Positions 26,163 through 28,835 of a DNA stretch of 31,383 nucleotides are shown piece after piece; position 1 is the first letter of the stretch; every line of letters begins with the position of its first letter. Below the pieces are notes generated by a model. It ran no database searches and had not been told where the DNA came from. It saw only the letters and a list, made by a program, of their open reading frames with translations. Source of the stretch: a virus; the IMG/VR virus record IMGVR_UViG_3300042554_000860, positions 1-31,383 of that record. One strand, given 5' to 3'. Made by a program: the position numbers and the translations under genes.

Positions 26163-26294
26163 CCCCGCAATCTGAATCCCCGCAATCCAAAGCTCCAAAG
26201 GCCCCAAGTCCCCCAAGTAAAGGGACACGTGAGGGACACGTAAGAGAGAGGCCTGAGTCACGGCTAGAGTCGCGGCTAGAGTCACGGCTAGAGT
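26163..26294. repeat. Stack of short tandem direct repeats
   Basis: In order: CCCCGCAATC at 26163 and 26178; CCCCAAGT at 26202 and 26211; AGGGACACGT at 26221 and 26232; and the 12-base unit GAGTCACGGCTA at 26255, 26267 (one change) and 26279, with a partial fourth copy. Four different repeat families packed in about 130 bases of non-coding DNA suggest multiple protein-binding sites, for example a packaging or replication site. Confidence 0.8.
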
Positions 26295-26432: not shown

Positions 26433-26466
26433 GGGGGGGGAGGGGGTTGGTGGGGTGGGGGGTGGG
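26433..26466 (+). repeat. G-quadruplex-forming G-run cluster
   Basis: The plus strand has eight, five, two, four, six and three consecutive G's separated by one or two bases (26433-26440, 26442-26446, 26449-26450, 26452-26455, 26457-26462, 26464-26466). This greatly exceeds the four-run requirement for an intramolecular quadruplex. It lies about 110 bases before the terminase small-subunit gene. Confidence 0.8.
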
Positions 26467-26578
26467 TAAATTGGGATTGCTCCACTAACCCCTTTTAAAA
26501 AATTCCCAATATGTCCCTAAAAGCCGCCCTATGCGATTAGGCTTGATCCGCCCCATTGGGGCGTACCAGCATAGCCCG

Positions 26579-27124
26579 ATGACCAAAGAACGCGCTAAAC
26601 GGGCTAGAAAGCCTGTTAGTGAGATGGCGGTGGAGATTGCTAAGTTCGGGGAGGCTGAGGGGAACTATCTGGAAAGGCGGGACCCGGCTAAGGCCGTGAA
26701 GGCTTTGGAGATGTTGGCGGAGGGGTGCTCATTTGGGAAGATCAGGGAGGAGCTGGGGATGAAGTGGGAGACGATTAGTCGGCTAAAGGCTAGGCATCAG
26801 ATGGTCTTGGAGGATAGGCGGCGGGAGTTGGCGCAGGATGCGCTGGAGATTGCGGAGGGTCTGAGACTCTTGCAGAAGGAGAAGATGAGGCAGTTGGCGG
26901 AGGACCCTGAGCAGTTGGCGCGGACCAACATCCGGGATTTGGCTATTCCTTGGGGGATAGCTAATGACAAGTTTCTTGCAGCTCTGGGGGAGAACAAGGT
27001 GGTGGTGGAGCACAAGGGTGCCGCGCCTAGCTTGGAGGATGCGATGAAGGCTATTGAGGAAGCTAGGGCCAAGCTGAAGGCTAGTAGCGTGGAAGTGGTG
27101 GCTAAACCCGTGGAGGCGTGTTGA
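26579..27124 (+). CDS. terS: Terminase small subunit
   Basis: 181 residues from ATG 26579; ATG 26531 is possible but adds a non-protein-like N-terminus. The product is basic at the front (MTKERAKRARKPVSEMAVEI) and has a helix-turn-helix at residues 50-70 (CSFGKIREELGMKWETISRL), followed by long helices (residues 75-130) typical of the ring-forming core of TerS and a C-terminal tail. Position directly before the large terminase supports the call. TerS would recognise the packaging site, and repeats suitable for that lie on both sides of this gene. No ribosome site is evident. Confidence 0.72.
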   Translation: MTKERAKRARKPVSEMAVEIAKFGEAEGNYLERRDPAKAVKALEMLAEGCSFGKIREELGMKWETISRLKARHQMVLEDRRRELAQDALEIAEGLRLLQKEKMRQLAEDPEQLARTNIRDLAIPWGIANDKFLAALGENKVVVEHKGAAPSLEDAMKAIEEARAKLKASSVEVVAKPVEAC

Positions 27125-27147
27125 AAAGACTGGGGTGTTTTTTCAAC
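27120..27147 (+). other. Stem-loop at end of terS
   Basis: GTTGAAAA (27120-27127) pairs with TTTTCAAC (27140-27147) across a 12-base loop, covering the terS stop. The stem is AT-rich and not followed by a T-run, so it is not a convincing terminator; it may affect coupling or mRNA stability. Confidence 0.4.
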
Positions 27148-27159
27148 AACGTGCAAAGC

Positions 27160-27220
27160 AAACTAGGCTTTCCTTTAATTCCATTTTCCGGAATTAACGA
27201 AAACTAGGCTTTCCTTTAAT
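27160..27220 (+). repeat. 20-bp direct repeats flanking an inverted repeat before terL
   Basis: AAACTAGGCTTTCCTTTAAT occurs exactly at 27160-27179 and 27201-27220, 41 bases apart. Between them TTAATTCC (27175-27182) and GGAATTAA (27190-27197) form a perfect eight-base inverted repeat with a seven-base spacer. The second copy ends one base before ATG 27222. This could be a packaging (cos/pac) site, a TerS operator or a translational control element. Confidence 0.85.
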
Positions 27221-27221
27221 A

Positions 27222-28835
27222 ATGGCCCTAGTCTGGGAACCGCACGAAGTTCTAAAGCCGCCGACTGACGAGGAGTTGGCGGCGATGGAGCCGCAGGATG
27301 TTCTGAAGCTCCACGAGCTTTACCACTCGGCTATCTCCAATAGCAGGCGTGACCCCTATCGGTACGGGTGGAAACTTCCTCATTGGCGGGATGCCGAGGA
27401 ACTGCTCCAGACCCACGCAGAATTGCTAGTAAGTGGCGGAAATCGTTCTGGCAAAACAAGTTGGGCAGCACACGCCGTAGTTAAGTCTGCGGTGGAGAAC
27501 CCCGGCTCCGTCATTATGTGCTTTGCCCAGAATGCGGATGTGTCCATCCGTCAGCAGCAGTCTGCGGTGTATGACGCTCTGCCGGAGGAGTTTAAGGCGA
27601 AGGTGTTGGGGACGGAGGAGAACGTGTCCTACACCCGGAAGAACGGGTTCTCCAAGTCCAGCCTCATCCTCCCAGTCAGCAAGAGTTCCATCATCTTTAA
27701 GACCTATGCCCAATTCCTTAACAACGACACAATCCTTGAGGGTGCTGAGTTGGGGTGCCGCAATCCTAGCTGGATCAACATTGGCGCTTGGTGTGATGAA
27801 TATCTGGTCGGACCGGAACTCCTTAGCACTCTTCGTTTCCGCCTCGCTACTCGCAACAGCAAGCTGGTCGTTACTTTTACACCTATCGACGGCTACACCG
27901 AAGTTGTCCGAGACTACGTGCAGGGAGCGGAGACCATCCGATCTAAGCCCGCCGAGCTTCTGGGTGGCCGGAACGTCCCATACCTACAGCGTTCAAGGAA
28001 CCGGGATGCCGGGATCATCTACTTCCACAGTAGAGACAACCCCTTCGGTGGTTACGACCGTATCGCCAAAGACCTAGCCAATAGGCCAGAAGCCGAAATC
28101 CTGACCCGTGCGTATGGCATTGCTACGAAGTCAGTCAGTACGAAGTTCCCCAACTTCAGCCGAGACCTAAACGTCGTAGCCCACGACTCGATCAACCTAA
28201 AGGGAACGACGAAGTATCTCATCCTCGACCCCGCTGGACGGAAGAATTGGTTTATGGCGTGGATTGCCGTGGACCAGTCGGATACGTGGTGGATTTATCG
28301 GGAATGGCCGGATGTGAATGTCGGGGAGTGGGCCAGATGGCACGGGGGTAAGTGGATTGGCGGAGAGGGGTCTAAGGGTCTGGGTTATGGCATCCGCGAT
28401 TACGTCGATCTCATCACGGGGATGGAGTCGGATACGAACGACTCAATCTTTGAACGACTGATCGACCCTCGGCTAGGTGCAGCCAAATATCAAACGCAAA
28501 CCGGCGTATCGTCCGTTATGGCGGACCTTGAGGATGCGGGGCTCGTATTCCTCCCAGCCCCCGGCTTGGACATCGAGGATGGATTGCAGGCCATCCAGAC
28601 CAAGCTTTCGTACAACAAGAAGGCTCCGGTTGATTCTTTGAATCGGCCTCATCTCTACATCTCAGACCGCTGCGAGAACATCATCCAAGCCTTTCAGGAG
28701 TACACGGCGGATGGTGGGCAGGACGAGGCGTGGAAAGACCCCATCGACTGCATTCGCTATGCGGCGGTGGCGGGGGTACGCTTTATCGACCCCAACTCAC
28801 TTCGAACCATTAAACCGACTGGAAGGGCCTACTGA
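27222..28835 (+). CDS. terL: Terminase large subunit
   Basis: 537 residues. ATPase domain: Walker A GGNRSGKTS (72-80), Walker B with the D192-E193 pair in INIGAWCDEYLVGPE, and a coupling motif VVTFTPIDGYT (217-226). The RNase H-like nuclease domain has acidic residues D336 (YLILDPAGRKNWF), D415 (ERLIDPRLG) and D507 (KDPIDCIRYA). It cuts concatemeric DNA and pumps it into the head through the portal. The nuclease start YLILDPAG resembles the podophage type. It is preceded by direct repeats and lacks a Shine-Dalgarno sequence. Confidence 0.95.
   Translation: MALVWEPHEVLKPPTDEELAAMEPQDVLKLHELYHSAISNSRRDPYRYGWKLPHWRDAEELLQTHAELLVSGGNRSGKTSWAAHAVVKSAVENPGSVIMCFAQNADVSIRQQQSAVYDALPEEFKAKVLGTEENVSYTRKNGFSKSSLILPVSKSSIIFKTYAQFLNNDTILEGAELGCRNPSWINIGAWCDEYLVGPELLSTLRFRLATRNSKLVVTFTPIDGYTEVVRDYVQGAETIRSKPAELLGGRNVPYLQRSRNRDAGIIYFHSRDNPFGGYDRIAKDLANRPEAEILTRAYGIATKSVSTKFPNFSRDLNVVAHDSINLKGTTKYLILDPAGRKNWFMAWIAVDQSDTWWIYREWPDVNVGEWARWHGGKWIGGEGSKGLGYGIRDYVDLITGMESDTNDSIFERLIDPRLGAAKYQTQTGVSSVMADLEDAGLVFLPAPGLDIEDGLQAIQTKLSYNKKAPVDSLNRPHLYISDRCENIIQAFQEYTADGGQDEAWKDPIDCIRYAAVAGVRFIDPNSLRTIKPTGRAY

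Follow-up and report, generated by a model that had tools for sequence, protein, structure and literature searches.

The terS-terL gap of the window (the whole 31,383-base stretch analysed here, which is the IMG/VR virus record IMGVR_UViG_3300042554_000860, classed linear) contains an element, E, made up of two copies of a 20-nt direct repeat, a 21-nt middle and one base preceding the terL start codon. We regard E as real and conserved, but most likely of an ordinary kind, namely a joint sequence at a slot for accessory genes. Its role is probably that of an intercistronic linker at this slot, which separates terS from terL. The slot is hereby documented in its empty, filled and linker-free states for a large group of uncultured phages, and the boundary-sequence idea of phage mosaicism becomes testable at one place. 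Furthermore, a tempting, probably wrong assignment of E as a cos/pac site is removed, and a better candidate is found upstream of terS.

The identity of terL is clear from its match to phrog_2. Relatives of the putative terS match PHROG 1482, annotated as 'terminase small subunit', with a best E of 2.7e-4, which amounts to weak family support. The predicted model of this protein is all-helical and of low confidence; in it, residues 52-88, a helical stretch modelled with confidence, resemble a helix-turn-helix. Between the two genes lie 97 nt (27125-27221), for which an earlier note, made from the letters of the window, had described two identical 20-mers 41 bases apart, a perfect 8-bp inverted repeat between them and a second copy abutting the terL start. 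All of these are present exactly as described. The two AAACTAGGCTTTCCTTTAAT copies (41 nt from start to start) have no further counterparts at ≤3 mismatches in the whole 31,383-base record, and the chance expectation in shuffles is 0.00. The inverted-repeat arms, TTAATTCC (27175-27182) and GGAATTAA (27190-27197), enclose a 7-nt loop, and the left arm overlaps the 3′ end of copy 1. Copy 2 ends at 27220, followed by one base and the terL ATG at 27222; because the repeats abut the terL start, they form the terL 5′ leader. Of the further claim that copy 2 controls terL translation, the position as 5′ leader stands, and the regulatory part is suggested by position and conservation. At most start codons of the larger ORFs in the window, a Shine-Dalgarno-like sequence is missing, and many of these starts come directly after TAAT or AAT, which may hint at the host group.

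Table 1. Features of the terS-terL region, in positions of the window.
Feature	Positions	Strand	Remarks
G-tract (GGGGGGGGAGGGGGTTGGTGGGGTGGGGGGTGGG) + AAATTGGGATTG...CCCTTTTAAAAAATTCCCAA, AT box	26433-26509		upstream of terS; recurs in relatives
Putative terS, 197 aa	26531..27124	+	13/20 homologues match PHROG 1482
Second linker H1, GTTGAAAA-N12-TTTTCAAC	27120..27147	+	overlaps terS stop codon; single copy in window
Element E (two copies, 21-nt middle, one base before ATG)	27160..27221	+	terS-terL only; 41-nt spacing
20-nt direct repeat, copy 1	27160..27179	+	exact match to AAACTAGGCTTTCCTTTAAT
Inverted repeat TTAATTCC-7 nt-GGAATTAA inside E	27175..27197	+	perfect 8-bp arms in window
20-nt direct repeat, copy 2	27201..27220	+	exact match to AAACTAGGCTTTCCTTTAAT; leader directly 5′ of terL ATG
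terL, 537 aa	27222..28835	+	phrog_2 terminase large subunit, E 1.5e-16

Viral contigs contain 561 TerL relatives and 147 TerS relatives, of which the best 80 of 561 and the best 80 of 147 were read. The exact 20-mer is present in 23 stretches of viral contigs, and a relaxed pattern of copy 2 plus ATG in 46. Across 118 (redundant) E loci, terS lies upstream and terL downstream in all but two, where the contig begins before terS is reached, and each genome or contig examined has a single E locus. The earlier note had proposed comparing the spacing in relatives, and here the 41 nt prove constant in every paired element. The element sits exactly between ORFs: the start codon comes directly after copy 2, always an ATG in paired elements, and the stop codon of the preceding gene is carried by copy 1 or lies before it. 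The exception is the single-copy variant L033, where one repeat copy runs straight into the start of a methyltransferase-like gene. Among 29 distinct elements, copy 2 is the most conserved part (14/20 columns invariant, majority 0.96), followed by copy 1 (majority 0.92) and the middle (0.86). Both copies are identical in only 3/29 and the perfect 8-bp arms are kept in only 10/29 (the outer four pairs in 26/29), and therefore the exact identity and the perfect dyad stressed in the earlier note are not required. Among named phages, only Phage C75C1 is related across most of TerL (44%); it has one overlapping small ORF between the gene in the terS position and terL. Two other candidate functions were rejected: a phage-type tandem promoter (there is a single locus per genome, and any transcript would begin at the gene or inside it) and a conserved small ORF running through E. 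The frame of the latter, KLGFPL..GIKENEAFL, is open in most elements and closed by a TAG in the window type, and its codon-position bias is weak.

The surroundings of E carry the argument for a slot. When E and its two 300-bp flanks were compared separately with the window, both flanks proved unrelated in L011, L183, L187, L191 and L196 (about 0.5 identity), with E at 81-95%. Among relatives in general, E is 77-98% identical while the genes on either side vary independently. The next gene after E is terL in 27 of the 35 E-bearing loci with a full-length TerL and another ORF in the other 8/35. Genes found in the slot include an HNH endonuclease (L013, L084 and L086; Pfam HNH, 3e-5). In L079-L081, and likewise in L033, the slot gene matches a methyltransferase weakly, and several further slot ORFs are small and have no Pfam match. 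L031, L017 and L054 have a 64-aa ORF between H1 and E, which follow each other in the window with no ORF in between. Taken side by side, the arrangements terS-H1-ORF-E-terL (L031), terS-H1-E-terL (window) and terS-E-terL (L008) give a series of filled and emptied slot states. Members of one ORF family (MTDQEW/MTNQEW) follow E in L025 and L043 and follow H1 in L058, and the linkers are therefore interchangeable in position.

The presence of an HNH endonuclease gene in the slot of L013, L084 and L086, where its 3′ end continues with codons of the terS C-terminus, raises the idea that homing endonucleases invade the slot and that E and H1 are their targets or the footprints they leave. This is quite improbable, as only this one type of HNH gene is seen there, it lies upstream of H1 and not inside E, and the majority of slot genes cannot be recognised as nucleases. 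The HNH ORF itself (L013 3339-3902; also in L084 and L086) has the same C-terminus as terS, PVEAC, suggesting that it may have been inserted by recombination at the terS 3′ end. A different kind of insertion is seen in L043 (1027-3606), whose TerL carries an in-frame insert of ~320 residues at the Walker A motif, near residue 73-76. This insert matches Pfam Intein_splicing with E 8.6e-8, marginally short of the curated threshold, and appears to be a terL intein, as is probably the case in L047 and L049. Variable terminase regions with turnover of methyltransferases and homing endonucleases have been described in cryoconite phage metagenomes (PMC7468147).

Full-length TerL loci without E number 38, and these mostly have a start/stop overlap of terS and terL, or another gene in between. 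Among them, L016, L018 and L042 are close to the window (TerS 95%, TerL 97-98% identical) and have a TAATG overlap and no E; the core motif is absent throughout their contigs, which are fragments of 4.9, 12.3 and 12.8 kb. In the TerL tree, E-bearing and E-less sequences are interleaved, with L016 and L018 inside an E-bearing group and L051 as sister to L053, and E has therefore been lost, gained or exchanged more than once.

These relatives also bear on the proposal of the earlier note that E is a cos/pac site or a TerS autoregulatory operator, with TerS bound to the direct repeats and the site either cut by terminase or used by TerS for repression. E does adjoin terS and terL, and the spacing of its perfect direct repeats corresponds to about four helical turns, with a dyad in between. 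However, E is missing in L016, L018 and L042 despite their near-identical terminase, an absence that the note itself had named as speaking against its proposal, and an essential cos/pac site or TerS operator is therefore very unlikely; neither role is borne out. Moreover, E is retained beside TerS proteins that are only 53-62% identical, and in other relatives it is displaced from terL and stands in front of unrelated accessory genes. Contig ends, a poor proxy for genome ends, form no cluster at E and do so upstream of terS: 23 of the 80 TerS loci have one no more than 500 bp upstream of the terS match and 18 have one in the adjoining 2000 bp, versus only 3/80 in the first 500 bp downstream of terS, the usual location of E.

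In the same upstream region lies a block with the order G-tract, AAATTGGGATTG, a short variable stretch and CCCTTTTAAAAAATT. Both E-bearing and E-less relatives have it, L016, L018 and L042 among them, and the TerS proteins encoded next to it are about 65-98% identical. Its distance to terS varies, and contig ends cluster nearby. Since some of these ends lie within the G-tract, they could stem from failed assembly instead of real termini. This block would be a better packaging, replication or late-control candidate than E. Further upstream, 3.3 tandem copies of the 12-mer GAGTCACGGCTA occupy 26255-26294, in the divergent intergenic region between replication genes and terS.

The gap also holds an additional inverted repeat, H1, which was missing from the earlier note. 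Its length is constant at 28 nt in relatives, where it too is found directly 5′ of start codons. The 8-nt arms of H1 are nearly invariant across relatives and the 12-nt middle is variable, a pattern that would also fit a dimeric protein-binding site. The arms were tried as a general phage motif and set aside: their 16 fixed bases have at least 119 matches in viral contigs, many outside this set, so the arms alone are uninformative.

On the linker reading, position and conservation suggest that copy 2 is the translation-start leader for whichever gene is downstream, and copy 1, which often holds the upstream stop codon, would be the end of the preceding unit. The same short sequences stand next to different inserted genes, so homologous recombination from one linker to another could swap, add or delete genes and leave terS and terL intact. 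The window would then represent an empty slot, terS-H1-E-terL, with its two linkers in tandem, and its sister states would be terS-H1-ORF-E-terL, terS-E-ORF-terL and linker-free terS-terL. From the mosaic patterns we infer that recombination may take place inside the linker; illegitimate recombination followed by selection, as the source of these patterns, would look similar. The linker idea by itself does not account for the retention of two copies at exactly 41 nt. GAGG is present in copy 2 of 19/29 elements and TAGG in that of 8/29, 13 nt from the ATG. For a Shine-Dalgarno sequence this AGG-ATG distance is long, and such a sequence is lacking at most starts of the window (from mechanical gene calls), so the leader role is weakly specified.

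The conserved spacing could also reflect a function at the RNA level. The 3′ hairpin arm ATTAAAG can pair with the CTTTAAT of either copy, and E could thereby be a cis-acting RNA regulator in which alternative hairpins expose or hide the start region, or in which the stem is a processing site. In line with this, the RNA of the window E folds better than shuffles (z about -2 to -2.9) and 87-91% of cells are paired in both alternative stems. Against it, covariation does not exceed shuffles for the hairpin or for the alternative hairpin with copy 2, and no measure of compensatory base changes in the E stem is clearly above shuffles. Inner stem pairs are broken in 9-16 of 27 sequences, the consensus fold does not recover the hairpin, one natural E variant folds no better than shuffles, and an Rfam search of E returns no family. 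We consider an RNA regulator rather unlikely. Improbable as it is, a more specific version would make E a translational switch, in which both copies compete for ATTAAAG and translation of the downstream gene is coupled to ribosomes finishing the upstream gene; as a portable control cassette, the switch would have come to stand before different slot genes. Transcription signals in E are at background level: a consensus scan for intrinsic terminators and sigma-70-like promoters finds 0 of the former and 1 of the latter (1.0 expected), which overlaps the start codon.

Among known systems, the pac site of SPP1 overlaps promoters, a ribosome-binding site and the start of gene 1, and its pacL and pacR are bound by TerS (PMC6316719). 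Like E, it consists of sequence motifs beside terminase genes, but E is located downstream of terS, and near-identical relatives can dispense with it. The promoter early stem loops (PeSLs) of T4-type phages are short intergenic cassettes with an inverted repeat that accompany gene shuffling, and E resembles them in these respects. In contrast to PeSLs, E has no promoter or terminator signal above chance and abuts a start codon, and it occurs at one locus per genome, whereas PeSL copies are many; it thus fails the defining PeSL features tested, i.e. promoter, terminator stem-loop and many dispersed copies. In PMC4503421, PeSLs of T4-type phages are cited to Arbiol 2010 and Comeau 2014. Phage boundary sequences are short, conserved sequences at mosaic gene joints, proposed as sites of homologous recombination, and are cited as such in PMC3029335. 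E differs from them as a 62-nt paired element of fixed spacing at one terS-terL slot only. It shares with them the short conserved joint whose neighbouring genes on both sides are unrelated from phage to phage, E being conserved between unrelated flanks in the five loci with 300-bp comparisons given above. The nearest known kinds to E are boundary sequences and PeSLs, and in its pattern E fits the boundary sequences.
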